DNA of 64,000 bases, taken from positions 1,598,769-1,662,768 of the forward strand of contig NZ_LT671417.1 in assembly GCF_900128445.1 (NCBI RefSeq), written 5' to 3'. The notes beneath the pieces were generated by a model. The model had not been told where the DNA came from, made no database searches, and worked only from the letters and a program-made list of their open reading frames with translations. The DNA is from Thermophilibacter provencensis. GTDB taxonomy: Bacteria; Actinomycetota; Coriobacteriia; Coriobacteriales; Atopobiaceae. Below are positions 6,000-32,452 of this stretch, one piece after another (the stretch's first letter is position 1; the number at the start of each line of letters is the position of its first letter). The position numbers were made by a program, and so were the translations under genes.

Positions 6000-6097
6000 G
6001 CTCATGGCTTTACCCCGTAAACGAAACCTAAACGACAGCCAGGGGTCGAAGGGATTATTCGTGTGCCTAACAGGTGCGTGAGGGGATGGAGCTTGCA

Positions 6098-8881
6098 ATG
6101 CCTATGAACAAGAAGCCCTGCGTTGTCGCCGGCCTCATGGCGACGCTAGGACTTGGTGCGACACTTGTCGCCGTGCCATCTGTCGCGCTGGCGGATGAGG
6201 TTGCCCCAAATGCCCCACTGTCTGGGCACGAGGTCCTCGCCGAGGATGAGGCCGGTAGAGATCTTGTTACCTTGCCCGGGACGGATTCCTCTGTAGGCGC
6301 TGAGGTGCCTGATGAGGCCGATGGCGTGACTGTCGACGAGGACACCCCGGATGTCGTAGAGCCCTCGGACCCCGTCTTGGATACTGATGAAACTGAGGGC
6401 ACGCTCCAGGAGGGGTCGGATGCGCTTGGCCCTGACGCGAACTCTCCTGCCGAGAATGGGGCCATCGCCCCCACCGACCCGACTGTCGCAACCGATACAG
6501 ACCTCGTCGAAGAAGACTCTTCCTCAGCGATTGTGGCCGACGATGTCCTCGATGCTTCCGAGACTCCTTCCTCTGATGCTTCGGACGTTGACGTCGAGCT
6601 TCCCAAGGTCGGCTGGGACGGGGACTTCTACTGGGATGGCACCACCAACGAGGACGGGACGGCGAGGGAGTACACCGGCTGGGTGGTCGACGACCATGAG
6701 GGCCAGGGGCTCCAGCGCTACTGGGTGAAGGAAGGCAAGAAGTTCACCGGTGGCGTGTTCGAGATTGGCGACGGCACCTTTGGCTATGCCCTCAGCAGCT
6801 GGGTGCTGCGTGAATCGAAGTGGGTTGGTGACCTCCTTTATATTGCCAATAACGATGGCGTTCTACTTACGGATGGATGGCACGTCGGCGACTTTGGTGA
6901 CGGACAGCAGCGATACTATGTTGAGAGCGACTCCCACGCGATTCGTAGGGGCTATTCCGACTCTACCGAAAATGGCGGTTGGGCGCACTACACCACCGAC
7001 GCAGGCTACGTGCTGCGCGGCGCGGGGCGCGGCTCCGACGACGGCCACATGTACTACGCCGACAACGACGGGCGCCTCTACACCTCCGGGTGGCTCGTGA
7101 CCGACGACTTCGGCCAGGGCCTCCAGCGCTACTGGTTCGAGGGCGACAGGGTCGCCTCCGTGGGCGTCCACCAGACGGGCGCCTCCTCTTGGACCTACGT
7201 CACCTCCGAGGGCTACGTCCTGCGCGGGCACCTTCCCGTGGGCAACCTCGTCTACCTCGCCGACAACGACGGCAACCTCGCCGGGGGCGCCGCTGGCGGC
7301 TGGGTCGTCTCCGACGACTTCGGCCAGGGCCTCCAGCGCTACTGGATCGACGCCGGGAAGCACGCGGCCGTCGTGGGCTACGACAACGGCTCAAAGGGCG
7401 CCGGCAACTGGGCGCACTACACCACCGACGCGGGCTACGTGCTGCGCGGCGCGGGGCGCGGCTCCGACGACGGCCACATGTACTACGCCGACAACGACGG
7501 GCGCCTCTACACCTCCGGGTGGCTCGTGACCGACGACTTCGGCCAGGGCCTCCAGCGCTACTGGTTCGAGGGCGACAGGGTCGCCTCCGTGGGCGTCCAC
7601 CAGACGGGCGCCTCCTCTTGGACCTACGTCACCTCCGAGGGCTACGTCCTGCGCGGGCACCTTCCCGTGGGCAACCTCGTCTACCTCGCCGACAACGACG
7701 GCAACCTCGCCGGGGGCGCCGCTGGCGGCTGGGTCGTCTCCGACGACTTCGGCCAGGGCCTCCAGCGCTACTGGATCGACGCCGGGAAGCACGCGGCCGT
7801 CGTGGGCTACGACAACGGCTCAAAGGGCGCCGGCAACTGGGCGCACTACACCACCGACGCGGGCTACGTGCTGCGCGGTAGTAAGTTAATGGCTAACGGC
7901 TATCTCCTTGCGGACAATGATGGCAAGATTGCTACCGTTGCCGGTGAGTCCGGTTTTGTGGTCTCCTCTGAGTTTGGGAATGGCCTGCAGAGGTATTTCC
8001 TCAAAAAGATTGATGGCGTTTACTACGCTCAGACTGGGCGCATCGATTATGGCGGTAGCCACTATTATGGGCTTAAGAACGTCGGCTATGTTCTCAGGGG
8101 CAAGTTGCGGTATGGTAATGGGATGCTTCTTGCGGACAACGATGGCGTGCTCGCCTGGACCGAGGGCTGGCTCGTTACGGATAAGTACGACGGGTCGATG
8201 CAGCGCTATCGTATCGACAGCGCTCCGGGCGATGGGTTGATGGGAGCCCGTATCGGTTTCTTCACGCTCGACGGGAATGACTACTACGGGCGTGACAATG
8301 AAGGCTATGTTGTGCGTGGCCTGTACATCGCCCCGTCTGGGAATGTGTACTATGGCAACAACGACGGAGTTCTCGAAGATGTCCCCGTCTCTCAGGTTGC
8401 CCTGAATCTCTGGGCGCGCATCAAGGACGTTTACAGTGCCACCCAGTACCTCATTGCCGTTGACTGCGAGAACTGTCACACCGTCGTCTTCCAGGGTAGC
8501 GCCGGCAACTGGAAGCCCATCTTCGACTGGCTCTGCGGCGTCGGGCTTCCCCAGTACAACGGTGGCCAGGGAACCATTCGCGGAACCTATACGATTGGCG
8601 GGGACGGCGCCTACTGCAACTGGACGAGCGACCCCGACTACTCCGAGTATGGCAACCCCTACGACTACCAGACGCGCTACTTCGCCAAGGATGACATCAA
8701 GTGGTACACCAACTTCTGCCTTGACCTTGGTTTCCACTCCACGATTGGCTGGGATGGCGGGTACAGCGACCCCAACCAAATCGGGAAGAAGATTTCCCAC
8801 GGCTGCATTCGCCTGCTCGAGGAGAATGCAAAGTGGATCTACTTTAACGCCTCGTATGGGACTACGGTCGTCACCATCTAG
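6098..8881 (+). CDS. Wall-binding-repeat protein with C-terminal YkuD L,D-transpeptidase
   Basis: 927 residues from the ATG at 6098 (GGAG six bases upstream); in-frame starts at 6074 and 6086 have poorly placed ribosome sites. Order: signal peptide ending VALADE (about 1-34), an Asp/Glu/Ser/Thr-rich linker to about residue 170, about ten wall-binding repeats (GW-V-T-D...G-LQRYW and Y-ADNDG-L), then a YkuD domain from about 767 with the full signature SHGCIRLLEEN near residue 900. YkuD enzymes make 3-3 peptidoglycan cross-links through the active Cys. Residues encoded by 6982-7839 are a 143-residue module present twice in tandem with almost identical DNA, followed by a short third start. A strong hairpin follows the stop. 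Confidence 0.88.
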   Translation: MPMNKKPCVVAGLMATLGLGATLVAVPSVALADEVAPNAPLSGHEVLAEDEAGRDLVTLPGTDSSVGAEVPDEADGVTVDEDTPDVVEPSDPVLDTDETEGTLQEGSDALGPDANSPAENGAIAPTDPTVATDTDLVEEDSSSAIVADDVLDASETPSSDASDVDVELPKVGWDGDFYWDGTTNEDGTAREYTGWVVDDHEGQGLQRYWVKEGKKFTGGVFEIGDGTFGYALSSWVLRESKWVGDLLYIANNDGVLLTDGWHVGDFGDGQQRYYVESDSHAIRRGYSDSTENGGWAHYTTDAGYVLRGAGRGSDDGHMYYADNDGRLYTSGWLVTDDFGQGLQRYWFEGDRVASVGVHQTGASSWTYVTSEGYVLRGHLPVGNLVYLADNDGNLAGGAAGGWVVSDDFGQGLQRYWIDAGKHAAVVGYDNGSKGAGNWAHYTTDAGYVLRGAGRGSDDGHMYYADNDGRLYTSGWLVTDDFGQGLQRYWFEGDRVASVGVHQTGASSWTYVTSEGYVLRGHLPVGNLVYLADNDGNLAGGAAGGWVVSDDFGQGLQRYWIDAGKHAAVVGYDNGSKGAGNWAHYTTDAGYVLRGSKLMANGYLLADNDGKIATVAGESGFVVSSEFGNGLQRYFLKKIDGVYYAQTGRIDYGGSHYYGLKNVGYVLRGKLRYGNGMLLADNDGVLAWTEGWLVTDKYDGSMQRYRIDSAPGDGLMGARIGFFTLDGNDYYGRDNEGYVVRGLYIAPSGNVYYGNNDGVLEDVPVSQVALNLWARIKDVYSATQYLIAVDCENCHTVVFQGSAGNWKPIFDWLCGVGLPQYNGGQGTIRGTYTIGGDGAYCNWTSDPDYSEYGNPYDYQTRYFAKDDIKWYTNFCLDLGFHSTIGWDGGYSDPNQIGKKISHGCIRLLEENAKWIYFNASYGTTVVTI
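6982..7878 (+). repeat. 429-bp in-frame tandem duplication (2.1 copies)
   Basis: Copy 1 occupies 6982-7410, copy 2 7411-7839, and about 38 bases of a third start run to 7878. By eye the copies are identical except for a synonymous third-base change (GCA/GCG) at the start. Each unit encodes 143 residues holding two wall-binding repeats. The DNA is much more GC-rich than the same gene on either side, with abrupt edges. This points to recent unequal exchange or gene conversion from a GC-rich paralogue. Confidence 0.95.
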
Positions 8882-8902: not shown

Positions 8903-8943
8903 GGGCGCGCGATGTCCGAGAATGACTTGGACATCGCGCGCCC
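8903..8943 (+). terminator. Hairpin after the transpeptidase gene
   Basis: GGGCGCGCGATGTCC (8903-8917) pairs perfectly with GGACATCGCGCGCCC (8929-8943) around an 11-base loop. It sits 21 bases after the stop codon. The following T-tract is poor (TTCCATATGG), so it may work as a terminator with weak release or as an mRNA-stabilising stem. It also lies just upstream of the next operon. Confidence 0.7.
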
Positions 8944-9004
8944 TTCCATATGGTTTAAAATGCTAAAGGTCGTTTCGCCTGTTTTTCTGGAGGTCTTCAA
9001 AGCC

Positions 9005-9985
9005 ATGGCTACCGTTCTCGTCACCTCGCTCGGCTCCGTCGCGGCCGACATCACCATCAAGACCCTCAAGCGTCTCAACCACCGTGTGGTGGGGACCGAC
9101 ATCAACCCGCGCGAGTACGTTGCCGACGCCCTTGAGGTCGGTGCGTTCTATCGCGCGCCCTATACGATGGACGTCGAGAACTACCTCGCCTTCATCGAGG
9201 ACGTCTGCGCGCGCGAGCACGTCGACTTCGTCTTTCCCATGACGGATCTCGACATCGACGTCTTCAACGCCAACCGCGAGCGCCTCGCCAAGACGGGCGC
9301 CACCTTCTGCATGTCACCCAAGAGCGCGCTCGACACGATCCGCAACAAGAAGACGCTCGCGGAGTTCATCAACGAGCACTGCCCCCAGATCAAGACCATC
9401 ACCACGCTCAGCCTCACAGAGTGCCAGGACGGCACGCCGTTCGGCTACCCCGTCATCGTGAAGCCCTATGACGGCCGCAGCAGCATCGGCCTCTATCGCA
9501 TCTACAACGAGTACGACTGGGCGGCCGCCATGGCGGCGATCGAGGAGCCCGAGCGCTACATCGTCCAGCCCTTCGTCGAGGGCCCCATCGTCATGTCAGA
9601 GATCGTGCGCAGCCCCGAGAGCGGAAAGACCGTCGTCGTGGTGCGTGAGGAGCTTCTTGAGACGAGCAACTTCTGTGCCATCACCGTGCGCATGTACCAC
9701 GACGAGGACCTTGAGGCACGCAGCCGCGAGCTCGCCAAGGCGCTCGACATTCGCGGCAGCGTGAACTTCGAGTGGATTCTCGACCCCGAGGGAACCTATC
9801 ACTTCGTTGAGTGCAACCCACGCTTCTCCGCTGGGGCCGAGTTCACCGTCATGAGCGGCTACGAGCTCATCGACAACCACCTCCGCTGCTTCCAGGGTCG
9901 CGACATCGAGGACTACACCTATCGTCACCAGATGATCATCGCCCGCAAGTACGAGGAGTACATCACCAAGATCTTCGAGGACTAG
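9005..9985 (+). CDS. ATP-grasp protein, carbamoyl-phosphate-synthase-like
   Basis: 326 residues from the ATG at 9005, with GGAGG 11 bases upstream; an earlier in-frame ATG at 8912 lies inside the terminator stem and was rejected. The N-terminus TVLVTSLGSVAADITIKTLK is a pre-ATP-grasp nucleotide fold. The middle has the ATP-clamping lysine in GYPVIVKPYDGRSSIGLY, and the end has the metal-binding signature FVECNPRFSAGAEF. ATP-grasp ligases join a carboxylate to an amine via an acyl phosphate. It is first in a four-gene operon with a glutamate carrier, a second ATP-grasp protein and a sugar transaminase, so it may attach an amino acid to an amino sugar. The substrate is inferred from context only. 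Confidence 0.82.
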   Translation: MATVLVTSLGSVAADITIKTLKRLNHRVVGTDINPREYVADALEVGAFYRAPYTMDVENYLAFIEDVCAREHVDFVFPMTDLDIDVFNANRERLAKTGATFCMSPKSALDTIRNKKTLAEFINEHCPQIKTITTLSLTECQDGTPFGYPVIVKPYDGRSSIGLYRIYNEYDWAAAMAAIEEPERYIVQPFVEGPIVMSEIVRSPESGKTVVVVREELLETSNFCAITVRMYHDEDLEARSRELAKALDIRGSVNFEWILDPEGTYHFVECNPRFSAGAEFTVMSGYELIDNHLRCFQGRDIEDYTYRHQMIIARKYEEYITKIFED

Positions 9986-9993
9986 GGGGCATC

Positions 9994-11352
9994 GTGACCG
10001 TCACAGACTTCCTGCTCGACTTCTGCATCATGTCCGGCCTTCTCCTCGTGTCTCACATCATTCGCACGAGGGTAAAGCTCTTTCAGAACCTCTACATCCC
10101 CGCCCCGCTCATCGCGGGGTTCCTAGGCCTCTTCCTCGGTCACCAGTTTCTGAACGTCCTGCCGTTCTCCCCGGCCATCTCCGATTACGCAGGAGTGCTC
10201 ATCTCCGTGGTGTTTGGCACGATGTTCCTGGGGGAGCGTCGCAAGGTCTCCTTTGGCTCCATGGTAAAAAAGGCGGGCGATTCCTTCTTCGTGAACGGTG
10301 CGGCGGAGATTGCTCAGTTCGGCCTCTTCATCCTCATTGGCGTGCTGGTGCTCCCACTCGTCTTCCCCGGTATCAACGAGTCCTTCGGCCTCATGCTGCC
10401 TGCGGGATTTGCGGGCGGCCACGGCACCGCAGCAGCCATGGGGGGCGTCTTCGCCGAGCACGGCTGGGACGAGGCGACGAGCATAGGTCAGGCATTCGCG
10501 ACCATCGGACTGCTCGGCGGCATCGTCTTTGGCGTTGCCCTCGTCAACCTTGGCACGAGGAAGGGCTACACTCGCGTGCTCAAGAAGGTCGAGGAGCTCC
10601 CTGAGGAGATGCGCATCGGACTCAACCCGCCGGAGAAGCGCGAGTCGCTCGGAGAGGACACGGTGAACTCCATCTCCATGGACTCGCTCACGTGGCACGG
10701 CGCTCTCGTCCTCGCAACGACGGGGCTCGCCTACCTCATCAACCACGGGCTCTCCATCGCGCTGCCGCAGATCGCCTTCCCCACGTATGGCATCGCCATC
10801 ATCTGCGGCATCATGCTCCAGGCGCTGCTGCGCGCGCTCAAGCTGGACACCTACGTTGACAAGCGCCCCATCACGCACATCTGCAGCTGCACGACGGACT
10901 ATCTCGTGGCCTTTGGCGTCGCCTCTATCAGCATCAACGTCGTCGTTAAGTACGCGGTTCCCATTGCCGTGCTCGCGGTACTCGGCTTTGCCTGCGTGTT
11001 CTTCTTCCACTTCGTCATCGCGGGGCACTTCCTCAGGAACTGCTGGTACGAGAGGGGCCTCTTCATCTTCGGCCAGTGCACGGGCGTGCTCGCCACGGGC
11101 GTGCTGCTGCTCCGCGTCTCCGACCCCGAGTTCAAGACAGGTGCGCTTGGGGACTTCGGCCTGGTCTGGCTCTTCTTCACCATTGTGGATGCCTTGCTCG
11201 TCGCGCTCACGCCGACCCTCCTGCTCGCTGGGTGGGGGCTTCCTGCGGGGGTCGTCATTACGCTTCTTGCCGTCGTGTTCCTACTCTTGAGCTGGAAGAT
11301 GTTCGGTGTGAGGAAGTTCAACGCGGCCGAGGGCATCCCTACCGAGGAGTAG
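9994..11352 (+). CDS. gltS: Sodium/glutamate symporter
   Basis: 452 residues starting at a GTG with AGGGGG just upstream, 8 bases after the previous stop. Ten or more hydrophobic helices span the protein. The segment MLPAGFAGGHGTAAAMGGVF is the hallmark glycine-rich loop of GltS, and a second related loop, LFIFGQCTGVLATGVLLL, occurs in the C-terminal half as expected for the inverted-repeat fold. GltS imports glutamate with sodium. Its place between two ATP-grasp genes and a glutamate-dependent sugar transaminase suggests it feeds amino donor to that pathway. Confidence 0.9.
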   Translation: MTVTDFLLDFCIMSGLLLVSHIIRTRVKLFQNLYIPAPLIAGFLGLFLGHQFLNVLPFSPAISDYAGVLISVVFGTMFLGERRKVSFGSMVKKAGDSFFVNGAAEIAQFGLFILIGVLVLPLVFPGINESFGLMLPAGFAGGHGTAAAMGGVFAEHGWDEATSIGQAFATIGLLGGIVFGVALVNLGTRKGYTRVLKKVEELPEEMRIGLNPPEKRESLGEDTVNSISMDSLTWHGALVLATTGLAYLINHGLSIALPQIAFPTYGIAIICGIMLQALLRALKLDTYVDKRPITHICSCTTDYLVAFGVASISINVVVKYAVPIAVLAVLGFACVFFFHFVIAGHFLRNCWYERGLFIFGQCTGVLATGVLLLRVSDPEFKTGALGDFGLVWLFFTIVDALLVALTPTLLLAGWGLPAGVVITLLAVVFLLLSWKMFGVRKFNAAEGIPTEE

Positions 11353-11374
11353 GGAAGACCAGGAGGGTAAGACG

Positions 11375-12652
11375 TTGTCTCAACACAAGCTGCTGATTCT
11401 CGGCTCGACCTCAGAGTTCTCACCTCTGGTCAATCGTGCTCGCGAGCGGGGGATTGCTACCGTCGCCTGTGACGGCTATCCTAACGGCCCTGCCAAGGCG
11501 CTCGCCGACGAGAGCTTCGACGTGAGCGTCTATGACCATGACGCCATCGCGGAGGTCTGCCACAGGACGGGCGCCGACGGCATCATCACGGCGTTCTCTG
11601 ACAACCTTGCCGAGCAGGCCTCCATCATCGCTGAGAGGGCGGGGCTGCCGTTCTACCTGCCCTCAGCGCGACTTGCCATCCTGCGCGACAAGACGCGCAT
11701 GAAGTCCATGTTCGACGAGCTGGGGGTGCCCTACCCGAGGACGGCCGTCGTGCGGCGCCAGAGCATCCGTGAGGGCCTGTCTGAGCTCTCCTTTCCCGTG
11801 GTGACCAAGCCGCTCAGCGGCTGGGGCTCTCGCGGCGTCTATCTGCTGGACACCCCAGACCAAGTCGTCGAGCGATTCGATGAGGTGGCGGGCTACTCTA
11901 GCGCCGACAGCATCATCGTGGAGGAGTACAACGACGGCTACGAGCTCAACATGATGAGCTGGGTCGTGGGTGGCGAGCCCATCGTGCTCGAGGTTGCTGA
12001 TCGCGAGAAGACCCATGACGTTCCGTTCGCTATTCCTCACGTGAGCAGAATCGTCTATCCGAGCTGTCTCATTGATGTCGTCATCGACGCTGCCCGTGAC
12101 ATCGCCGGCCGCGTCGCGCGCTATGTTGGCCTTGAGAACGGCCCGCTCTGCATGCAGTTCTTCTGGAAGCCCGGTCGTGGGATCCAGGTGTGCGAGTGCG
12201 CCGGCCGCGTCTTTGGGACCGAGCACGAGATGCTCGAGTATGCTACCTATGGGCGCCTTACCGTAGAGGACCTGCTCATAGACACGGTCTATGAGCCCGA
12301 GCGCCTGGGAGAGAGGCTGGCGGGGCACGACCCGCACCTCGACAGGGTGGCGTGCGGCCTCTTCTTCCATGGGAAGGAGGGGAGAATCGCCAAGATAGAG
12401 GGAGTCCCGTCCCCGGAGGCGGACCCACGCGTCATTGACACGCTCATGTACTACGCTGTTGGCGAGGACATCCGGCGGGGCGCCCAGCCCTACGTGATGC
12501 GGAGCTATCTCGCCTCCGAAGCACGAGGGGAGCTTGACGAGCTGACCGACAAGATCAACGACTCCTTCTCCGTGTTCTCCGAGGACGGCTCCTCGCTTCT
12601 GCTGCATAATGAGCGCATGACCTATGAGACGGCCCCCGAGGGGGATAGATAG
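11375..12652 (+). CDS. ATP-grasp ligase
   Basis: 425 residues from a TTG start that has a strong AGGAGG site 9 bases upstream. An N-terminal nucleotide-binding-like fold (KLLILGSTSEFSPLVNRARERG) precedes the ATP-grasp core: DKTRMKSMFDELGVPYPRT, LSFPVVTKPLSGWGSRGVY with the ATP lysine, EEYNDGYELNM, and CMQFFWKPGRGIQVCECAGRVFG near the metal site. The family includes PurK/PylC/BL00235-type ligases. The gene stops one base before the WecE-type gene begins, so the two are translationally coupled. A role in amide-bond modification of an amino sugar or its precursor is inference. Confidence 0.85.
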   Translation: MSQHKLLILGSTSEFSPLVNRARERGIATVACDGYPNGPAKALADESFDVSVYDHDAIAEVCHRTGADGIITAFSDNLAEQASIIAERAGLPFYLPSARLAILRDKTRMKSMFDELGVPYPRTAVVRRQSIREGLSELSFPVVTKPLSGWGSRGVYLLDTPDQVVERFDEVAGYSSADSIIVEEYNDGYELNMMSWVVGGEPIVLEVADREKTHDVPFAIPHVSRIVYPSCLIDVVIDAARDIAGRVARYVGLENGPLCMQFFWKPGRGIQVCECAGRVFGTEHEMLEYATYGRLTVEDLLIDTVYEPERLGERLAGHDPHLDRVACGLFFHGKEGRIAKIEGVPSPEADPRVIDTLMYYAVGEDIRRGAQPYVMRSYLASEARGELDELTDKINDSFSVFSEDGSSLLLHNERMTYETAPEGDR

Positions 12653-12653
12653 C

Positions 12654-13787
12654 ATGATTGATTTCAACGTTCCGCCCTACGTGGGCACCGAGATGGACTA
12701 CGTCCGCGAGGCCGCCGAGAAGAACCGCAAGATCTGCGGCGATGGCCCCTTCTCCCGCAAGTGCCACGCCTGGATGGAGGAGCGCTTCGGCGCGGAGAAG
12801 GTCCTGCTCACCACGAGTGGCACGGCCGCGCTCGAGATGGCCGCCGTGCTCTGCGACCTCAAGCCCGGTGACGAGGTGATTCTCCCAAGCTTCACCTTCT
12901 CGTCCACGGCGACGGCCTTCCAGGCGATGGGCGCCACGCTCGTCTTCGTGGACATCCGCCCGGACACCATGAACATCGATGAGGCCAAGATCGAGGACGC
13001 CATCACGGAGCGCACTCGCGTTATTGTTCCCGTGCACTATGCCGGCGTGTCCTGCGAGATGGACGAGATTGTTCGCATCGCCCGCAAGCACAACCTCATC
13101 GTGGTCGAGGATGCAGCCCAGGGCGTCATGAGCACCTACAAGGGGCGTGCCCTGGGAACCATCGGCACCTTCGGCTGCTACTCGTTCCACGAGACCAAGA
13201 ACTACTCGATGGGGGAGGGCGGTGCCCTTGTCATCAACGACCCGGCCTACATCGAACGCGCGGAGATCATCCGCGAGAAGGGCACCAACCGCTCGCTCTT
13301 CAAGCTTGGCCAGGTGGACAAGTACACGTGGGTCGACCGCGGCAGCTCCTATCTCCAGAGCGACCTCAACGCCGCCTACCTCTGGGCCCAGCTCGAGAGG
13401 GCGGACGAGATCAACGATGACCGCCTTGCCACTTGGCATGCGTACTACGAGGCGTTTGAGCCTCTCGCGGAGGCGGGGAAGGTCGAGCTTCCCGTGGTGC
13501 CCGAGGGGTGCGTGCACAACGCGCACATGTTCTACCTCAAGGTAAGGGACCTCGAGGAGAGGACCGCCTTCATCGAGCATCTCAAGCAGCATGGCGTCAT
13601 GGCGGTGTTCCACTACGTGCCGCTGCACAGCTCGCCCGCGGGGCTCAGATTCGGCAGGTTCCATGGGGAGGACGTCTACACCACGAAGGAGAGCGACCGA
13701 CTGGTGAGGTTGCCGATGTATTATGGGCTTTCGGCTGAGGATTGTGCGTCTGTGGTCGGTGCCGTGAAAGGGTTCTTTGGGGTGTGA
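12654..13787 (+). CDS. wecE: dTDP-4-amino-4,6-dideoxygalactose transaminase-like (WecE/RffA)
   Basis: 377 residues, the normal length. The sequence resembles enterobacterial RffA/WecE along its whole length: CGDGPFSRKC, LLTTSGTAALEMA, SFTFSSTATAF, RPDTMNIDE, VVEDAAQGVMSTYKGRALG, and the PLP lysine at about residue 182 in SFHETKNYSMGEGGA. The enzyme transfers the amino group of glutamate to a dTDP-4-keto-6-deoxy sugar, which is also why an upstream GltS carrier makes sense. The dTDP-sugar synthesis genes are not in the window. The start is the ATG one base past the previous stop; an in-frame ATG at 12624 would overlap it. Confidence 0.92.
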   Translation: MIDFNVPPYVGTEMDYVREAAEKNRKICGDGPFSRKCHAWMEERFGAEKVLLTTSGTAALEMAAVLCDLKPGDEVILPSFTFSSTATAFQAMGATLVFVDIRPDTMNIDEAKIEDAITERTRVIVPVHYAGVSCEMDEIVRIARKHNLIVVEDAAQGVMSTYKGRALGTIGTFGCYSFHETKNYSMGEGGALVINDPAYIERAEIIREKGTNRSLFKLGQVDKYTWVDRGSSYLQSDLNAAYLWAQLERADEINDDRLATWHAYYEAFEPLAEAGKVELPVVPEGCVHNAHMFYLKVRDLEERTAFIEHLKQHGVMAVFHYVPLHSSPAGLRFGRFHGEDVYTTKESDRLVRLPMYYGLSAEDCASVVGAVKGFFGV

Positions 13788-14462
13788 CGAATGGCGCCAT
13801 GTCTTTCGGTGGTGTCAATCTTTTCATATCGCTGCTTCGAGAACGTGCCGGATGAGACAAGCTATGCGCACGCAGGGCTATCGCGGATGATGATGGGCAT
13901 TATGTCGCTATTGCTCACATGTAATCTCAAGGCATAGAGTGTGCGGCAAGAGGATAGTGAGTGGAGCACTTCGCGGTCAACGCGTTATCGAGCGGTCCTC
14001 GTTGTGTTGACCATTGCCTTGACTTTGGATTGCATCGAATCGCATTACTGACTGCATATGCCGTGGTTCCGTAGGGACCTCCCTATGATGAGGGTGATAA
14101 AGCCCGTTCAAACGGATATGTCCGACGCCGCAGCGCAACTCTATGAATTGTGTATGGATGACGAGGTGGAAGAAGCGACAATAACGTAATCCGTGGAGTG
14201 AATATCTCCTGGCATAGGTGTGCAATGAATCGGTAGGAGTGCTGTATCTTGGGTGCGAATCAGGCATTACGCTTCTGAGATAATCGGCTCATACCGCCTC
14301 TGTCGCTGGGCATGTCGTCTTGCTTGTAAAACTCTGCACGCTTCTGCCCGGCTTCTACAGTACGCGTTCATTTCAATTTGGCATTCAGTTTTTCTAATCT
14401 GATGGTAAAATATGAACACATAATGCGTGATTTGCCGACCAGATTTCCTCTTGGGAGAGACC
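13788..14462. other. 675-bp gene-free gap at a composition boundary
   Basis: No convincing gene, tRNA or IS end was found here. Short frames on the minus strand (for example 13977-14267) have no ribosome site and unlikely protein composition. The gap separates the GC-rich operon ending at 13787 from a 12-kb block with more A/T-ending and CGA/TCG-type codons. A TAAAAT at 14406-14411 could be the -10 box of the lic fusion gene. The rest may be a recombination scar or decayed DNA. Confidence 0.5.
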
Positions 14463-16241
14463 ATGTCGCTCACGAAAAACGAATTCAAGATCCTGAATGC
14501 GCTCAGCAAGACGGGCGATACCTTGACGAGGCGCCAAATCGCGCAGGAGACCGGTTTGGCTTTGGGTACGGTAAGCTCCGTTGCCCGCGGACTTGAGGCA
14601 GATGGCAAGATGCTCGATGGGCGCATCACCGAAAGGGGCATCTCCGCGCTCGAGCCCTATCGAATCGACAATGCGGTCATCATGGCGGCCGGTCTCTCCA
14701 GCCGTTTCGTACCCCTCTCATACGAGCGACCCAAAGGCATGTTGCGTGTTAAGGGCGAGATTCTCATCGAGCGACAGATCGAGCAGCTGCTCGAGCGCGG
14801 CATCTCGGACATCACGGTTGTCGTCGGCTATAAGAAAGAGTATTTCTTCTACCTGGTGGCAAAGTATGGCGTCAAGATCGTTGTGAACGATTTGTACGCC
14901 GAGCGCAACAATAGTTGGACGCTTTGGCTCGTGCGCGATCGGTTGCGCAATACCTACGTTTGCTCTTCAGATGACTATTTTACGGTCAATCCATTTGAGC
15001 GATACGTATACAAAGCCTATTACGCCTCTGTGTATGCACAGGGAGAGACGGCAGAGTGGTGCATTGGGACCGGATCGGGCGGTCGTATCACCAAGCTTTC
15101 CATCGGCGGCCGCGATTCATGGATCATGCTCGGGCATGCGTATTTCGATCGCGCATTCTCCGAACGATTCGTGCGACTCCTTGGCGATGTGATCGAGCGT
15201 CCCGACACATTCGGCAGACTATGGGAAGATGTCTACGCCGCACATCTCGACCTTTTGGACATGGAGATTCGACGGTACGACGAAGGCGTGATTTGGGAGT
15301 TCGATTCGCTTGCGGAGCTCGAAGACTTCGACCCGGACTTCATCTTCAATGTCGATTCGGAGATCTTCGACAACATCGAACGCGTCCTTGGATGCAAGCG
15401 GGAGGAGATTACCCACTTCTATCCCATGAGCCAAGGTATCACGAACCTCTCATGCCACTTTGCGGTCGGTGACCATGAATATGTATACCGACATCCCGGT
15501 GTGGGAACCGAAAAGCTCATAAATCGCAAAACGGAGGTTGCCGCTAACACGGCGGCGCGGTCAATCGGTGTCGACCGGACATTCATGTACGAGGATGATG
15601 AGCGGGGGTGGAAGATCTGCCATTTCATCTCTCATGCCCGCACGCTCGACCCGTCAAGTCCCACGGACGTGAAGCGTGCCATGGAACTTTGCCGCCGCAT
15701 TCACGAGTCGGATGTGGAACTCGATACGGTATTCGATTTCTTCGAGAACGGTGTTGGCTACGAGAAGGCACTTGCGGAACGCGGCGCCATCGATATCCCG
15801 GGTTACTTTGAGTTGCGCGGAAAGGTGGCGCGTCTTAACGAGCTCTCGAAATGCGATGGATACGGCCTGTGCTTTAGTCATAACGACTATCTGCAGTTCA
15901 ACATCCTCTTCGATGATGAAGGCGAGCTTAGCATCATCGATTGGGAGTATGCGGGAATGTCCGACCCCATGAATGACGTTGCGACGTATGCGGTGTGCAG
16001 TGAGGCGGATGAACATCTCGCGGAACAAGCGTTGACTTTTTATCTGGGGAAACGTCCGACGTCGCGCGAGCTGAGGCACTTCTGGTCGCGCGTGGTGCTT
16101 GCCGGATGGTGCTGGTATGTATGGGCTCTGGTGAAGGAGGCCGAGGGTGCCGGCGTCGGTGAATGGCTGTATATCTATTACCGGTACGCCGCTCAATATG
16201 TGGATGCGGCGCTACGTCGATACGAGGATGTGGCGGAATGA
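14463..16241 (+). CDS. licC: Winged-helix / CTP:phosphocholine cytidylyltransferase / choline kinase fusion
   Basis: 592 residues from the ATG at 14463 (GGGAGAG upstream). Three parts are visible. Residues 1-65 are a MarR-like winged helix (LTRRQIAQETGLALGTVSSVARGL). Residues about 70-290 are a LicC-type nucleotidyltransferase with AVIMAAGLSSRFVPL and the lysine of YERPKGMLRVKGEILIERQI. Residues about 310-592 are a LicA/choline-kinase domain with the catalytic motif FSHNDYLQFNIL (HND at 473-475) and metal-binding IDWEYAGMSDP. Together they would phosphorylate choline and activate it to CDP-choline. The permease gene overlaps the stop (ATGA). LicD, which would transfer phosphocholine to the glycan, is not in the window. 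Confidence 0.9.
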   Translation: MSLTKNEFKILNALSKTGDTLTRRQIAQETGLALGTVSSVARGLEADGKMLDGRITERGISALEPYRIDNAVIMAAGLSSRFVPLSYERPKGMLRVKGEILIERQIEQLLERGISDITVVVGYKKEYFFYLVAKYGVKIVVNDLYAERNNSWTLWLVRDRLRNTYVCSSDDYFTVNPFERYVYKAYYASVYAQGETAEWCIGTGSGGRITKLSIGGRDSWIMLGHAYFDRAFSERFVRLLGDVIERPDTFGRLWEDVYAAHLDLLDMEIRRYDEGVIWEFDSLAELEDFDPDFIFNVDSEIFDNIERVLGCKREEITHFYPMSQGITNLSCHFAVGDHEYVYRHPGVGTEKLINRKTEVAANTAARSIGVDRTFMYEDDERGWKICHFISHARTLDPSSPTDVKRAMELCRRIHESDVELDTVFDFFENGVGYEKALAERGAIDIPGYFELRGKVARLNELSKCDGYGLCFSHNDYLQFNILFDDEGELSIIDWEYAGMSDPMNDVATYAVCSEADEHLAEQALTFYLGKRPTSRELRHFWSRVVLAGWCWYVWALVKEAEGAGVGEWLYIYYRYAAQYVDAALRRYEDVAE

Positions 16242-17179
16242 TATTCGGTATCGGGGCGGCGATCACGTGGGCGCTCGATACGGTGATTCTCGGTATCGCC
16301 CTCGCAACGGCAGTGTTTTCAGCAAGTCCGATGGCCATCGCCCTTGCCTCGTTTACGAGCACGTTCCTGCACGATGCGTGCTCCGCGCTATACACCCTCG
16401 TTTACTTGTCGACACGCGGAAAGCTGCGCACCGCCATGCGCACGCTCTTCTCACGCAATGGACTCGTTGTGGCCGGTGCCGCGCTGGTGGGAGCCCCTCT
16501 GGGAATGACGGGCTATGTAGTGGCCATCGATAACATCGGACCTGCGTATACTGCTGCGATCTCGGCCTTTTTCCCGGCGTGGGGCGCATTGCTGTCCACC
16601 CTTCTGCTCAAGGAACGTATGAAGGGCTATCAATGGGCAGGACTTTCGGTGTGCCTCGTAAGCGTCGCGGCTTTGAGCTGGTCTCCCGCCGCAAATGTGC
16701 CGGGTAACTGGGCAATTGGCATCGCGGCCGCACTCGCTTGCGTTTTCGGGTGGGGTACCGAGGCCGTTATTATCGACTGGAAGCTGCGGGACGCCTCGAT
16801 CGACGATGAGTGCGCGATGCAGATTCGCGAAATCGTATCGGCTCTGACCTACGCCTTGATAATCCTGCCCGTGCTAGGTGGCTGGAGCTGTGCGCTTGAT
16901 GCGTTGAGAAGCAGTGCGATGCCGTTTATCGCGATAGCGGCATTCTGCGGTACGGTCTCGTATCTCCTGTATTACAAGGCCATCGCGCGGCTTGGCGCCG
17001 CACGTGCGATGGCCCTGAACATCACGTATTCAGCTTGGACTATTCCGTTTTCGCTGATTATGCTGGGGGCGATGCCCGACCTGCGCGGCGTGATGTGCGC
17101 TCTTCTGATTATCGTTGGGGCCATTGTAGCGGCGACGGATCTGCCCTCGTTGTTTGATACGTCGAACCGGCGTGCATAG
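16238..17179 (+). CDS. licB: LicB-like choline permease, EamA/DMT family
   Basis: 313 residues with about ten hydrophobic helices in two EamA halves; the conserved segment IGPAYTAAISAFFPAWGALLSTLLLKERM closes the first half. The family is that of LicB, which brings choline into the cell in phosphocholine-decorating bacteria, although DMT carriers with other substrates look similar. The ATG overlaps the stop codon of the licC-licA fusion (ATGA), so the products are translationally coupled, and this is the main reason for the choline assignment. Confidence 0.82.
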   Translation: MIFGIGAAITWALDTVILGIALATAVFSASPMAIALASFTSTFLHDACSALYTLVYLSTRGKLRTAMRTLFSRNGLVVAGAALVGAPLGMTGYVVAIDNIGPAYTAAISAFFPAWGALLSTLLLKERMKGYQWAGLSVCLVSVAALSWSPAANVPGNWAIGIAAALACVFGWGTEAVIIDWKLRDASIDDECAMQIREIVSALTYALIILPVLGGWSCALDALRSSAMPFIAIAAFCGTVSYLLYYKAIARLGAARAMALNITYSAWTIPFSLIMLGAMPDLRGVMCALLIIVGAIVAATDLPSLFDTSNRRA

Positions 17180-21594: not shown

Positions 21595-22641
21595 CTAGAA
21601 CATCGCTGTGCGGTCGGGAACTCGTTCGAAGGGGAAACGGTAGAGAAATTCCGGTAACGCTCGCTCGATTGCGATGCGTTCATCACGGTATTCGGGAATG
21701 AGAAAGAGCTGCGTGTTATTGAGCGACTGCTCCGGGATCAATTTCGTGCGCGGCGCAACGTGGTCGTCCGCTCGCAGCCCGAGTGTCTTGAGGGTGGACG
21801 CCACGGTGTCATCGTATCGATACAGTAGGTCCTCGAAGCTAAGGCGCATGACGTGAGGGAAACTATGAGGGAGCGTTTCCATATCACGCATCCTACGGTA
21901 GTAAGCGCAAAATGCATGCACATCGGTGGGGAACGGCACAGGGTTGCCCTGCGGAAGCCATACATATTTATTGAGCAGAAAGACGTCACGCGGGTCGCGC
22001 TGAACGACGAACACAAACGCGTTGTCGGAAAAATACGAATCAAGTCGAGAGAGGTTGAAGGGGAGTACGAGCTGGTCGAGAACCAGATGGTGCTCTTCGA
22101 TGCCAAGATCGATAAAAATATCCTGCAAGAAATGCCGTGCAGCTTGATAGTACTCTTCAGAGGTGGGGAGCGCGATAGCCATCGGTGCGTAGCGTAGCAT
22201 CTTGGGGAAACTGATCATGCCGCGCGTCAGGCGCGTGCATGCTCGCTTTGCGAGGGATAGAGCGAGCCGGGGCCCCGTGAGACGCTCTTGGTGATACCAA
22301 TAGGCATCCGATGTGAAATCGACAAGCTCATCCACAAAGGCATAGACGCGGTCCATGAAGGTCTCGGAAAGATTCGCGCGGTAGTTTCCAGGCCACCAAA
22401 ACTTCGACTCGAAGAGAGCCTCCATGGTCTCGATGAAGGAGTGGATCGCTTCGTCGCTACGGATGGCGTTGTTGTTTCTGAGCAATTTCTCTTCCAAGTC
22501 GAAAACGCCATCGGGGCAATGAAGGAAAATGTATTCAAAACTGCCGTGGTTTTCCGTGTAGCCGCGAAACTCGCCTATTAAATCGGTAAGGGCGGATGAG
22601 CCCGACCCCATATAACCCGTTGGAATAACCACGTTATTCAT
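21595..22641 (-). CDS. Sulfotransferase-like P-loop protein
   Basis: 348 residues. The N-terminal loop PTGYMGSGSSALTDL (residues 7-21) occupies the place of the phosphosulfate-binding loop of PAPS-dependent sulfotransferases, and FVVQRDPRDVFLLNK (about 211-225) matches the second PAPS-binding segment, with the Arg and the following acidic residues. The protein could sulfate a glycan or an envelope lipid. The start overlaps the end of the flippase gene by 8 bases, so both are expressed together. No PAPS synthesis genes are in the window, so the substrate and the reaction are inferred from the motifs. Confidence 0.7.
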   Translation of the reverse strand: MNNVVIPTGYMGSGSSALTDLIGEFRGYTENHGSFEYIFLHCPDGVFDLEEKLLRNNNAIRSDEAIHSFIETMEALFESKFWWPGNYRANLSETFMDRVYAFVDELVDFTSDAYWYHQERLTGPRLALSLAKRACTRLTRGMISFPKMLRYAPMAIALPTSEEYYQAARHFLQDIFIDLGIEEHHLVLDQLVLPFNLSRLDSYFSDNAFVFVVQRDPRDVFLLNKYVWLPQGNPVPFPTDVHAFCAYYRRMRDMETLPHSFPHVMRLSFEDLLYRYDDTVASTLKTLGLRADDHVAPRTKLIPEQSLNNTQLFLIPEYRDERIAIERALPEFLYRFPFERVPDRTAMF

Positions 22642-25126: not shown

Positions 25127-26143
25127 CTAGTGCGTGATGCGCGCGATATATCCCGCGTCGTTCGACCAGATGACCTCGAGGTTACCCGAGAGCTTTTCGG
25201 CAGCGGTGCGGGACTCAATCGATCCGACGCTCTCAAAAGGCTCACGTGTCAGGACGACGACGTAATCACACTGAACCGTTATCTCCTGTACGGCCTCATC
25301 GACGGTGGCGGTTTCCCAAGGACGGATGCCCGGGACGTAGTCTTGGCGAACCAACGCAATCCACCAGTAGCATTGTTCGATATTGCCCAAGAATGCTATC
25401 GGTCGGTCCGAAATCTCGGTAAGATGATCGGCCTGCTCGTAGACGGCGAGTGTACCGGGGTCAAACTCGCTGCCAGGTCGTAGATAGGAGTCGTTCCAGG
25501 TGTAAATGTCAAAAAAGGGCTGGTAACTTGCAACAACTCCATAGTTCGAGCGAGGCATGAGGTTCGCAAGCCTTTGGTCAAGCTGCGTGACGTTGATGCC
25601 GACGAGCGCACATATCGTCGCGACGCATCCAGCGAGGAAGGGCTTAGAGGCTCCGCGTGCGACCTGCAGGACGCCAAAGACAGCGCAGGCCATCATGAGA
25701 GGCTCCATCAAATAGTAAAATTTGAAGAAATAGTACGTTGAGATGATGTTGGGAAACGTCAGCAGGAAGCATACGGCTAACGTCGCGACAATGCCGATGA
25801 GTACGCCCTGTCGATACCAAGCGACCGCTAGGCATGCAAAGGAGGCGAGGTAGATCGTTGGGGCGAAGAGCGCGTAGCTGGTGATAAGACCGAGCGGCAT
25901 CCTGCCCAATCCGGCATAGGATGCGGGCGTCGATTCGTTCAGGATGCAGGCACAGAAGAAGGCAACGCCTATCGCCATGGAGACGCCGACGCCGAGGTGG
26001 AAAAAGCTATCGACATGGCGAATTGTGTGGAATGGTGTCATCAATGAACCCCCAGAGTCGATTGCAGATTTCCCATTGTACTCAAGCGGGATGCGACGAG
26101 AAACGGCTATGTCGGTCGGTTCGGCTTCTGTGGCAAAACTGCG
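25127..26143 (-). pseudogene. Membrane protein gene truncated at its 5' end by an IS element
   Basis: Several hydrophobic helices (for example FLLTFPNIISTYYFFKFYYLMEPLMMACAVFG) are followed by a ~120-residue soluble tail ending WSNDAGYIARITH. A start is possible at 26041, but the frame stays open upstream through 26143 with protein-like sequence (EAEPTDIAVSRRIPLEYNGK), then meets a stop where the IS3-like element begins. The general layout, helices then a short extracytoplasmic C-terminal domain, resembles the DUF6541 protein at 56244, which has 698 residues. So probably half the gene was lost. The product may be non-functional. Confidence 0.65.
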
Positions 26144-26153
26144 CTATTGGGAC

Positions 26154-27576
26154 TGCGGACATTTTCTTGTACACCCCACACGGTGTAGCTGTGCTCCCTC
26201 CTGTGCTCGTCCGGCGTGAGCCACCCGAGCGCCTGCGACGTGGACTCCTCGTGGAACGAGGCTCCGGACAAAATCTCGGAGCAAACTTGGTCCAGGAGGG
26301 AGTCCGATGTACACCAAGGAGGAGCGCGAGGGGATTCTCTGGGAGTTCCACCGCAGCGGCATGAGCGTCCCGGAGGCGTGTCGGCTATCGCCACTGTTCC
26401 CTGTCGCAACAACCTGTATCGTTGGCTCAGGATGGAGGCCGCGATGGCGGGCGCGCCCGAGCAGATCGACTGGAGGGACTGGGGCGCCGACCTGCCGGAG
26501 GAGCCTGCGGAGCGCGCGAGGATGGCCGAGGTCAAGCTGGCGGAGGCACTGGCGGTGTTGGACGTCCTAAAAGCACCAGGCCCGGCCTCTTTGACCGGCG
26601 AGGAGAGGCGGCGGGCCGGGGAGCTGGCGCGGGGGAGGTGCCCGCTCGTCAGGCCCGGGGACGCGGCCGAGACGCTCTTGATAACGAAGAGCACCTACCT
26701 CGACTATGCCGCGAGGGCCGCTAGGCCCGATCCCAAGGTCGCCCTGCGTGAGCGCGTGCGCGCATCCTTCGAGGCGAGCGGAGGGTCTTACGGATTCGAG
26801 TCGGCGGCCGCCGACCCCGGGTCCGGGGAGGGCGCCGGTGTCCTGGCGCGACCTCGAACCGGGGGCGCGTCCACGCCCGTCGCGGCCCCGGGGAAGGTTG
26901 TGCGCGCCATCATAGCCGAGGAGGGCCTCGTCGCCCGCAAGGCGGCGCGGATGGCGCGGGAGGCGGTGGTCGAGCTACGCCGGCGAGCTGTCCGAGCGGC
27001 CCGCCAGCGCCCCGCCCGCCGAGGACGGCACTCACGACTTCCATGCGTCTGAGCCGTGGCCGCTCGTCGTCACCGACGTCACGGAGGTACGCCTTGACGG
27101 CCTCAAGGCGTACCTCTCGCCGGCGATTGACTGCCTCGATGGCTGGCAGGTTTGCTGGAGGCTGTCCCTGCACCCCGACAAGGAACTCATGGTCGGTATG
27201 CTCTCCGACCTCGTCGCGGAGGTGGCCCCGACCGAAGAGCGCCCCCTGGTGGTGCACACCGACGGGGGCTCGGCCTGCATGACCGACGACTGGGCGCCGG
27301 CGCGCCGGGCGGGGCGCGCCACGCGGTTGATGTCGCGGAAGGCGGGGGCCACGACAACGCCCGCGCCGAGGGGTTCTTCGGCACGCCCGAGTGCGACTTC
27401 TTCGAGGGCCGCAACTGGACGGGAGTCGGGTTCGAGGAGTTTGCGACCAAGCTGGACGGGTGCATCGAGTGGTGCCGCAGCGGGAAGCTCAAGAAGTCAC
27501 TGGGATGGAGGACCATCAGGCGGAGCCGCGAGGAGCTTGGTCACGCGGCGTAGTCGTTAGTCCGAAAAACATCCGA
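26154..27576 (+). mobile_element. Decayed IS3-family element
   Basis: About 1.42 kb. The outer sequences TGCGGACATTTTCTTGTAC (left) and the reverse complement of the right edge, TCGGATGTTTTTCGGACTA, are only partly alike, so the ends are approximate. The element separates the truncated membrane gene from an IS21 remnant. No flanking duplication can be shown because the right side is itself an IS. Confidence 0.7.
26307..27553 (+). pseudogene. IS3-family transposase (orfA/orfB), multiply frameshifted
   Basis: The start, MYTKEEREGILWEFHRSGMS, is the helix-turn-helix protein OrfA; its continuation switches to the frame of 26216 (GAPEQIDWRDWGADLPEEPAER). Pieces of the DDE integrase OrfB follow in different frames, including KVVRAIIAEEGLVARKAARM, SPAIDCLDGWQVCW, RPLVVHTDGGSACMTDDWA, DNARAEGFFGTPECDFFEG and KLKKSLGWRTIRRSREELG. 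At least four frame changes are needed, so the transposase is dead. Confidence 0.8.
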
Positions 27577-28608
27577 GGTCCCGAGGCGCCCACCGACCTC
27601 GGTGCGGACCTCAGGGCGCTGCGTGACGCGGGCGCGTCGCGGCCACCCTCGAGCTCGCCGCTACCAGGGCTGCCGCGGGCGATGCTGTGGTCGCCTACGA
27701 CGCGCCGGTCGACCTTGCGGGGTACGACCGGGCCGCGGGCAGCTGGAGGGGGCGGCGCCAGTGCCTAGGCCGGCCGACGAGGGACGCGGGGAGTTCCCCT
27801 CCCGGGCGAGGTCGCTGTTCATCTCGGAGGCGACGATATCTTGGTTCCTCGAGACCGTCATCTCCGGCCAGCTCGCGGCGTGCTCATCGATGCTCGCCCG
27901 CGAGCCGGGGTCGCGCGAGCGCTCAAAGCGCGCGAGGCTGCTGAGGCAGGCTCGCTTCCCGGTGCCCAAGGCCGTCGAGTGCTTCGACTGGTCCCACGCC
28001 CGATTCCCGGAGGGCTGGGGCCGCGAGGAGATGCTCTCGCTCGAGTTCGTGGGGCGTGCTGAGGACCTCGTCTTCCACGGCCCCACGGGACGGGGCAAGA
28101 CGCATGTGGCGACGGCGCTCGGTATCGAGGTGACCCACTGCGGCGTCCCCCTTCGGCTCTTCCAGACGGCGGCGCTTGTACCGCGGCCCGGCAGGGCCAA
28201 GCGCGAGGGAACGCTCGACAGGCTGCTGGCGAACGTCGGCAAGGCCCATCTCGTGGTCCTCGACGAGTTCGGTAACGTGCCCTTCGACGTGGAGGGCGCC
28301 CGCCTGCTCTACCAGGTCATATCCGGCAGCTACGAGGGGAGGAGCATGGTGCCTGTCACCAGCGTTGAGCTCGGCCGCTGGGGAACGATCTTCGCGGACG
28401 ACAGGCTCGCCGCCGCGATTGTCGGCCGCGTCGTCCACCAAGGCAGGCTCGTGGGGCTCGACGGTCCCAGCCATGGGCTCGAGGAGTCGCTCATGCTGGG
28501 CAGGTCGGGAAGCTAGCGGCGTGCCCGTGCCGGAAACCGAAAAACTTGCGTGGAGAAACCCGAAAGAAGGTCACGCTCTTTTCCGAAAGCGAGACTTGAC
28601 AAAACACA
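27577..28608 (+). mobile_element. IS21-family remnant, 5' part missing
   Basis: The left edge carries the last part of an istA gene (PEAPTDLGADLRALRD, matching EAPADLAADLRVLRD in the element at 50590), then an out-of-frame stretch, then istB. The right end has the multiple AACCGAAAAA / AACCCGAAAG terminal repeats and finishes CTTGACAAAACACA, very like the CTTGACTAAACACA end at 53104. It abuts the inside of an ISL3 transposase gene on the right and the IS3 remnant on the left. Confidence 0.8.
27761..28516 (+). CDS. istB: IstB-like ATPase of an IS21 remnant
   Basis: 251 residues from a GTG at 27761. It aligns along its length with the IstB at 52242: LFISEATISWFLETVISGQL, ARLLRQARFPVPK, the Walker A loop GPTGRGKTHVATALG, and LVVLDEFGNVPFDVEGARLL (Walker B). 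IstB is the AAA+ helper that presents target DNA to IstA. The partner istA is only a fragment here, so this copy cannot transpose by itself. Some changes at conserved sites (TTNVE to TSVEL) suggest early decay. Confidence 0.8.
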   Translation: MPRPADEGRGEFPSRARSLFISEATISWFLETVISGQLAACSSMLAREPGSRERSKRARLLRQARFPVPKAVECFDWSHARFPEGWGREEMLSLEFVGRAEDLVFHGPTGRGKTHVATALGIEVTHCGVPLRLFQTAALVPRPGRAKREGTLDRLLANVGKAHLVVLDEFGNVPFDVEGARLLYQVISGSYEGRSMVPVTSVELGRWGTIFADDRLAAAIVGRVVHQGRLVGLDGPSHGLEESLMLGRSGS

Positions 28609-29630: not shown

Positions 29631-29731
29631 GTGGGCACCTCCCGTCGCCGCCCGACGACAGAATGGTACCGCTCGGGGTCACGCGGTCACGAGGGGCTGG
29701 GTGCGCTACCCACTAAAAGTTCCGAAGAGCC
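28609..29731 (-). mobile_element. ISL3-family element, truncated
   Basis: The intact end is at 29731: on the minus strand it reads GGCTCTTCGGAACTTTTAGT, the typical ISL3 terminal repeat. The transposase gene runs inward from 29630. The other end is missing; the coding region stops matching at 28609, where the IS21 end begins, so the IS21 element landed in this transposase gene, and the far side was later lost. Confidence 0.78.
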
Positions 29732-29943
29732 TCAATTTGTTCGTTTTGGCTCTCCAGTCGCAATTTGCGGATGCTATCGAGATTACTATTGAGATGGGAT
29801 GCGTTGATGAATATGGTCGATTATGGGTCTCGGTTGCTACAATTCACATGATGTAACTACTATACGAGACCTCTGGCTATATTGCCTATTCAACTCTCAA
29901 GTCACGCCTCGTTCCTATAGGACTTTGAAGATTGGATGCGTCA
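29732..29943 (+). other. Leader of the tandem glycosyltransferase gene
   Basis: A 212-bp AT-rich gap between the ISL3 end and the next gene. It contains a short open stretch ending at 29856 (SQFADAIEITIEMGCVDEYG) that could be the tail of a gene broken by the ISL3 insertion, but it is too short to judge. No clear promoter boxes or terminator were found. Confidence 0.35.
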
Positions 29944-32394: not shown

Positions 32395-32408
32395 ACGATA
32401 GATGCGCT

Positions 32409-32452
32409 AAGCCGGAGATGACCGCATATAAAACTACTGCCCTCTCCGGCTT
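32409..32452 (+). terminator. Hairpin after the tandem glycosyltransferase gene
   Basis: AAGCCGGAGA (32409-32418) pairs perfectly with TCTCCGGCTT (32443-32452) around a 24-base loop, 15 bases after the stop. There is no U-run, and the loop is long. The stem reads alike from both sides and may serve both this gene and the convergent gene beyond the IS. Confidence 0.45.

Follow-up and report, generated by a model that had tools for sequence, protein, structure and literature searches.

Does an enzyme that activates choline for the bacterial surface carry its own regulator? The question is raised by a locus of Thermophilibacter provencensis (contig NZ_LT671417.1, positions 1,598,769 to 1,662,768), a stretch of 64,000 nucleotides that we call the window throughout. 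One of its genes encodes a protein in which a putative DNA-binding winged helix is followed by a LicC-like CTP:phosphocholine cytidylyltransferase and a LicA-like choline kinase, and the gene of a LicB-like choline permease overlaps its end. We favour, with good though incomplete confidence, the reading that this is a choline-salvage cassette whose N-terminal winged helix binds an upstream repeat and controls its own gene together with the transporter. The domains, the motif residues, the membership of the choline clade, the repeat and the link between the repeat and the type of helix were all computed.

A winged helix, LicC and LicA in one protein

The fusion is a single open reading frame from ATG to stop, as the initial annotation had it, and Pfam, the PDB and an AlphaFold model agree on its three parts (Table 1). 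Relatives align from this ATG, and an in-frame GTG at 14427 is a possible upstream start. In Pfam, HTH_24 covers residues 4-48, NTP_transf_3 residues 71-145 (E = 7e-10), APH residues 395-536 (1e-12) and Choline_kinase residues 450-509 (1e-7). The best matches of the cassette among solved structures are the pneumococcal LicC, LicA and LicB: in the PDB sequence search Streptococcus pneumoniae LicC (1jyk) aligns with residues 64-286 and its choline kinase LicA (4r77) with residues 312-576, and S. pneumoniae LicB (7b0k) is the sole match of the permease up to an E-value of 1. The model of the fusion (mean pLDDT 91.5) has helices at residues 5-17, 23-30 and 34-46 and short strands at 50-55, followed by both catalytic domains. 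On comparison of this model with known structures, LicC (1jyl, rmsd 1.9 over 228 aligned residues) and LicA (Z 24.5) rank first and sugar nucleotidyltransferases lower, and Foldseek also matches the kinase domain to LicA. The identities first given to the two catalytic domains are borne out, as their best matches are neither sugar nucleotidyltransferases nor sugar kinases, and so is the coupling of a LicB-like permease through ATGA, its start lying within the last codons of the fusion gene.

MarR-like families had been suggested for comparison with the N-terminal domain. A winged helix is indeed found by profile, with HTH_24 as the best model and HTH_IclR barely at its cut-off; the two MarR models stay under theirs, which is a small correction. 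A sequence search with the first 66 residues gave a best E-value of only 0.15, and the fold search with the whole model says little on the helix because its result list is taken up by the catalytic domains.

From these sequences we infer enzyme activity, DNA binding, the sign of regulation and the ligand as follows. The LicB-like permease would import choline, the C-terminal kinase would phosphorylate it with ATP, and the middle domain would turn phosphocholine and CTP into CDP-choline. At the level of the family, the winged helix would bind GTTCA-N24..26-TGAAC shortly before the gene and control both this gene and its transporter, the likeliest mode being repression in response to a ligand of the pathway (choline, phosphocholine, CDP-choline or CTP).

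An inverted repeat upstream follows the type of helix

A conserved repeat stands before the genes of this family, and the copy in the window is one mismatch away from it. We collected 186 upstream regions of 200 bp and reduced them to 137 non-redundant ones via shared 10-mers; 77 of these contain GTTCA followed by TGAAC at a distance of 8-40 bp, compared with a mean of 0.85 and a maximum of 4 in 20 dinucleotide shuffles. When half-site pairs are counted over spacings of 0-70 bp, those of 24, 25 and 26 bp occur in 25, 49 and 9 regions, and a spacing of 52 bp occurs in 14. The resulting element of 34-36 bp, GTTCA-N24..26-TGAAC, is exact in 76 of the 137 regions and has one mismatch in 28 more (at most one mismatch in 104), the other 33 having two or more.

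A scan of 119 sequences, each 12 kb or longer and together 2.41 Mb with the window among them, gave 125 distinct exact sites, 98 of which are positioned between 20 bp inside and 250 bp before a gene of the family; simple base counting predicts about 7 chance sites, against the 27 found elsewhere. Among the roughly 20 of these 27 that were inspected for their neighbours, sites lie ahead of LicB (loci L062 and L065), an NCS1 permease (L114, L139), an aminoethylphosphonate-type binding protein (L039, L043, L044, L117, L119, L120), a Sulfatase-family protein (L138) and a lone LicC-like gene (L203), and several resemble chance matches in coding DNA. In the six loci of the aminoethylphosphonate type, genes for a winged helix-turn-helix (wHTH)-LicC protein without kinase are found near the ABC importer genes that the repeat precedes; one such importer scores best against the NCBIfam models phnS2 and PhnU2, in both cases under cut-off. 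Across 296 genomes, a stricter form of the repeat occurs in 75 of the 103 that have the family and 65 of the 193 that do not (p = 1.2e-10, an association only), and the reversed control pattern in 21.

The repeat also goes with the helix itself. Where helix 2 and the recognition helix begin, four conserved residues stand out: Q23, R24, S33 and N38, present in 91, 91, 86 and 87% of 117 aligned proteins. We call a helix canonical if it has at least three of them. A site with at most one mismatch precedes 100 of 123 genes with a canonical helix versus 4 of 14 others (p = 9.8e-5). Second copies with a degenerate helix in L033 and L034 have no site, their upstream DNA being the end of another gene. 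Among 10 distinct helix-poor relatives with 250 bp of upstream DNA covered, 8 are without a site at this level; the exceptions are L051, which keeps a partial helix, and a LicA-only gene (L144/L160) that shares its upstream region with a divergent fusion. Conversely, of 9 distinct kinase-less wHTH-LicC genes whose helix is canonical, 8 are preceded by an exact site at a distance of no more than 4.5 kb; upstream coverage of the remaining gene ends at 1.5 kb. The site follows the type of helix over the choline, ethanolamine and aminoethylphosphonate-type branches, and the operator-like repeat suggests, as independent support at the level of the family, that the winged helix has a regulatory role.

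Table 1. Cassette features by position in the window, with the evidence for each.
Feature	Position	Strand	Evidence
Winged helix-turn-helix domain, aa 1-66	14463..14660	+	HTH_24 1.4e-6; wHTH secondary structure in model; conserved columns in 117 relatives
LicC-like CTP:phosphocholine cytidylyltransferase domain, aa 67-294	14661..15344	+	1jyk 7.8e-39; 1jyl Z 29.4
LicA-like choline kinase domain, aa 312-592	15396..16238	+	4r77 2.1e-23; Foldseek 1.6e-17; Brenner motif H473-N-D-x4-N480; Y496, W551, W554, W568
Whole fusion gene wHTH-LicC-LicA, 592 aa	14463..16241	+	Open reading frame, Pfam, PDB, AlphaFold model
LicB-like choline permease (EamA/DMT), 313 aa, ATGA overlap with fusion	16238..17179	+	7b0k 3.7e-29; Pfam EamA 4.9e-19
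Operator-like inverted repeat ATTCA-N25-TGAAC, one mismatch to family consensus	14383..14417	.	Weak alone
Additional half-site GTTCA	14366..14370	+	42 bp from right arm, off family spacing
Putative -10-like hexamer TAAAAT within operator-like repeat	14406..14411	+	Inference; absent from consensus promoter scan list

Ahead of the fusion gene, the scan for consensus promoters gave no entry on the + strand.

Choline as the likeliest substrate

Choline is the likeliest substrate of the window fusion, because both the neighbouring genes and the pocket residues point there. Of 239 gene hits, among which overlapping loci may count one gene twice, 202 had sufficient length and gave 169 distinct proteins, whose nearest transporter within 1.2 kb is LicB in 100 cases, EutH in 9, of the amino-acid permease type in 6, NCS1 in 3 and unknown in 5, with none in 46. 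Where one protein per type was held against NCBIfam cut-offs, an EutH protein passes, and an amino-acid permease-type protein passes as ethanolamine permease. Columns of the kinase domain distinguish the LicB-linked from the EutH-linked proteins: W549, C550, Y552 and Y572 are found in 92, 92, 91 and 94 of the 100 LicB-linked proteins and in none of the 9 EutH-linked ones, and the window protein has all four; its L at column 477 is a minority state, shared with 8 of the 100. In a FastTree phylogeny of 114 of the 169 rows (alternate LicB rows retained, unknown rows left out) the clade of the window protein comprises 65 rows, 45 with LicB, 20 unlabelled and none with an ethanolamine-type or other transporter, with a support of 99. 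Judged by these data, the window copy belongs to the choline clade of the family. The choline pocket of LicA, as given in PMC4364537, consists of Tyr197, Trp251, Trp254 and Tyr268 with Glu213 at its rim, and in the 4r77 alignment the four aromatic residues correspond to Y496, W551, W554 and W568 of the window protein, all of them aromatic.

Paralogues of the family pair with LicB, with ethanolamine transporters or, when kinase-less, with the aminoethylphosphonate-type importer. Fusion paralogues adjoin the ethanolamine transporter EutH in L145, L113, L120, L119, L116, L193 and L166; in L145 a EutH copy and a LicB copy each adjoin a paralogue, with an MttB-family gene near. L202, from a near relative of the window genome (G122) in which LicD is present, holds an 882-residue relative that ends in a second LicC-like stretch and has a neighbour of the amino-acid permease type.

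Distribution of the family and use of CDP-choline

A relative of the fusion (E up to 1e-20) is present in 152 of 396 genomes of the class, a count that includes some helix-less or partial proteins, and in the 80 of 109 loci covered by name the relatives come from Coriobacteriia and from Actinomyces, Schaalia, Arcanobacterium and kin. The family is no peculiarity of this locus: it is common in Coriobacteriia and also occurs in Actinomycetaceae. At least 45 of the 80 loci have a LicD-like gene in their flanks, recognised by motif or, for L034, by agreement with a PF04991 place; this is an undercount, as the picking of frames missed the LicD of L033 that the PF04991 search found. At the genome level 121 genomes have both the family and LicD, 31 the family only, 49 LicD only and 195 neither (odds ratio 15.5). 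The window genome (2.63 Mb, 99.5% complete) belongs to these 31, and also to a set of 10 among the 152 with neither LicD nor Glyphos_transf, four of which are less than 90% complete. The absence of LicD nearby, already remarked upon from the sequence, extends to the genome as searched with PF04991 (0 matches, the same model finding LicD in 170 of the 396 genomes), and no convincing LicD remnant lies in the window, where the best tblastn hit is 0.004 at 51.8 kb.

We considered several users of CDP-choline in its place. LicD itself and a transferase of the TagB/F type were rejected, none being found in the genome. For a dedicated lipid choline phosphotransferase there are two PF01066 matches, which look like core genes of the genus: the 256-residue match is present in 30 of 31 genus genomes regardless of the fusion, and each of the 30 also has a second, weaker match. 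The membrane sulfatase-type protein of LicD-less relatives has only a weak match in the window's own genome (7.5e-4), similar to that in the fusion-less G084. A fusion of YidC (60KD_IMP) and Glyphos_transf, about 640 residues long, is found near membrane Sulfatase-family proteins (by Pfam in L135 and L138, by tblastn in others). It was set aside as a general substitute for LicD, being near the cassette in LicD-less L134, L135, L138 and L149 and in LicD-bearing L051, L113, L130 and L132; among family genomes Glyphos_transf is not enriched where LicD is missing (21/31 versus 69/121, p = 0.31). We keep this protein as a lead to a possible alternative transferase.

As far as tested, the user of CDP-choline is probably not a dedicated lipid enzyme. 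The locus around the cassette is of the polysaccharide type and also encodes glycosyltransferases, a flippase, a WecE-type transaminase and ATP-grasp proteins. Because of this location the acceptor is most likely a glycan, and the likeliest fate of CDP-choline would be the attachment of its phosphocholine to the cell surface, on a glycan, via another transferase.

Weighing the alternatives

Several observations weigh against a self-regulated choline-salvage cassette. In the choline pocket, the rim residue Glu213 of LicA corresponds to C512 of the window protein. LicC Asp105 and Asp192, thought to give choline space according to PMC6697681, correspond to S168 and E255, a state shared with 87 and 99 of the 100 LicB-linked relatives. 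No LicD was found in the genome. The window helix reads R23, R24, A33 and S38, so that three conserved positions are changed (Q, S and N being expected), and its identity to four sisters is 45-59%, compared with 74-78% for LicC and 66-72% for LicA, as under relaxed constraint; drifted helices are also seen in the sisters L004 and L005. The best site of the window carries a mismatch. The window as a whole contains ten sites that have one mismatch or none, the one exact site being elsewhere (63341), and the site before the fusion gene counts by its place only; the two best half-sites there (14366-14417) are 42 bp apart compared with the family spacing of 24-26. The only match of the window's genome to the stricter pattern, among the matches listed, lies outside the window (C3:1360481-1360518) and is shared with G015. 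This pattern also occurs in the 65 family-less genomes, many of its sites, among the matches listed, being coding-like in composition. On tree-independent pairs the link between helix and site shows the same trend and is not significant (7 pairs, median p = 0.375), and a separate regulator could bind the repeat. Because the window helix is altered and its site mismatched, regulation in the window strain is uncertain and may be weakened or retuned, and the enzymes look intact. The regulatory role first proposed for the helix gains support at the level of the family, through the repeat and its link to the helix, and is less secure for the window copy: in 14 of the 137, this copy included, the recognition helix is altered.

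On a rival view the winged helix does not bind DNA and serves only for structure or dimerisation, and the repeat belongs to a separate regulator of choline genes. Conservation is lower in the helix than in the enzymes (mean frequency of the top residue 0.53, compared with 0.75 for LicC and 0.67 for LicA), the pairwise result above leaves room for it, and L124 and L125 have an exact site despite an altered helix, though both genomes have a second, canonical copy (L018 and L010). Such a module would not predict what is seen at Q23, R24, S33 and N38, which are among the conserved positions, nor a site that follows the helix type in all three substrate branches, kinase-less proteins included, and we regard it as unlikely. 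Somewhat more room must be given to decay, in which the window copy would be a remnant that has lost LicD, with helix and repeat drifted and the surface no longer modified. The missing LicD, the drift of the helix, an end branch of 0.32 compared with 0.15-0.20 in three near sisters, and the place of the genome among the ten with neither LicD nor Glyphos_transf all fit; against this, both reading frames are intact, the coupling to LicB is retained, and D170, E279, H473, D475, N480 and D493, taken as catalytic from the LicC alignment and the Brenner motif, are kept. We find this doubtful.

Two further proposals concern the fate of the choline and not the regulator, and both strike us as very improbable. 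CDP-choline might feed phosphatidylcholine synthesis and not surface decoration, as in Treponema denticola; a CDP-choline pathway with a choline phosphotransferase is described for Treponema in PMC7368946, and the lack of LicD in the window genome would suit it. Across the class, however, the family goes with LicD (121 of 152), and the two PF01066 matches look non-dedicated, present as they are with or without the fusion, which by itself does not prove their substrates. Alternatively, phosphocholine would anchor the repeat proteins of the window, as it does the choline-binding proteins of pneumococci. Four wall proteins of the window (6092-8881, 37408-41121, 41281-43263 and 43265-45832) combine repeats of about 70 residues with YkuD, CotH, glucosaminidase and Amidase_3 domains. 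Pfam Choline_bind_3 matches one repeat protein above its cut-off (45.4 bits against 27), and proteins linked by BLAST, with no profile check, flank the fusion in Collinsella aerofaciens. Anchoring by choline was nevertheless rejected, since the repeat type tracks neither partner: by a profile built from window repeats only, which may miss other repeat types, it occurs in 33 of the 396 genomes, with no association with the fusion (16 of the 33 versus 136 of 363, p = 0.26) or with LicD (p = 0.85), and 13 repeat genomes have neither.

Neighbouring genes

The stretch 8912-13787 encodes, one after the other, a WecE-type transaminase that exceeds its NCBIfam cut-off, a pair of ATP-grasp proteins and a glutamate symporter; perhaps, as a guess, an amino acid becomes attached to a 4-amino sugar here. 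The 348-residue protein of 21595-22641 has no Pfam match and motifs that resemble those of a sulfotransferase. By eye, the polysaccharide locus is broken up at 26000-35000 and 48000-53700 by long frames that resemble insertion-element genes for transposases and helper proteins.

Relation to known systems

In its steps of uptake, phosphorylation and activation with CTP the cassette matches the Lic-1 pathway of S. pneumoniae and Haemophilus influenzae (LicA, LicB, LicC, LicD). The LicA-type kinase, the LicC-type cytidylyltransferase and the LicB-type permease are all present; unlike in Lic-1, a winged helix precedes LicC and LicA within a single protein, and the search of the genome yielded no LicD. 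A LicC-LicA fusion (licCA) with both catalytic steps in one protein reportedly occurs in Treponema denticola and is not known to have a winged helix; it differs from the window fusion in feeding phosphatidylcholine. PMC7368946 does not contain the terms fused, fusion or bifunctional. Lic-1 enzymes of Actinomyces gerencseriae and A. viscosus are included in a survey of phosphorylcholine genes (PMC10434233), which does not use the words fusion, fused or helix.

In architecture only, the fusion resembles NadR, which likewise places a DNA-binding domain, a nucleotidyltransferase and a kinase in one salvage protein and in S. typhimurium is an NAD-dependent repressor (PMC7221760). It is not a member of that family: NadR is an NMN adenylyltransferase and ribosylnicotinamide kinase, whereas the catalytic families LicC and LicA are unrelated to these and act on another substrate. 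By analogy, the fusion family looks like a self-regulating enzyme, NadR-like in layout. The aminoethylphosphonate cytidylyltransferases PntC are relatives of LicC, and the kinase-less wHTH-LicC relatives lie near importer genes of the aminoethylphosphonate type. The window protein falls outside PntC, having a fused kinase, a LicB neighbour and S168/E255 where the kinase-less relatives have E/D. PMC6697681, a paper on PntC, places lic genes relatively near in Olsenella uli and Atopobium rimae and describes Ppm fusions as well as PntC fused to a transaminase; its main text does not use the words helix, MarR or DNA-binding. Among the matches listed in a literature search of titles and abstract openings, whose coverage mostly excludes subscription papers and preprints, there was no winged-helix LicC-LicA fusion and no such repeat or regulator. 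Each enzyme is of a known kind; the GTTCA-N24..26-TGAAC repeat and the regulatory proposal are new.

A wider proposition, to which we give an even chance of being right, is that these are modular, self-regulating activating enzymes in which one winged helix and one operator code, GTTCA-N24..26-TGAAC, would serve a choline branch (LicB), an ethanolamine branch (EutH or ethanolamine permease) and a kinase-less aminoethylphosphonate branch and so set the phosphorus head group of the surface; in genomes like that of the window, CDP-choline would be used by a transferase that is neither LicD nor of the TagB/F type (Glyphos_transf). Genomes with the enzyme and without LicD point to another way of using or attaching phosphocholine, and the repeat offers a direct way to test the regulation and points to further candidates for the regulon. 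Phosphocholine and phosphoethanolamine on the surface shape how bacteria are recognised by the host, and in gut and oral actinobacteria activation coupled to uptake appears to be tied to gene control within one protein.

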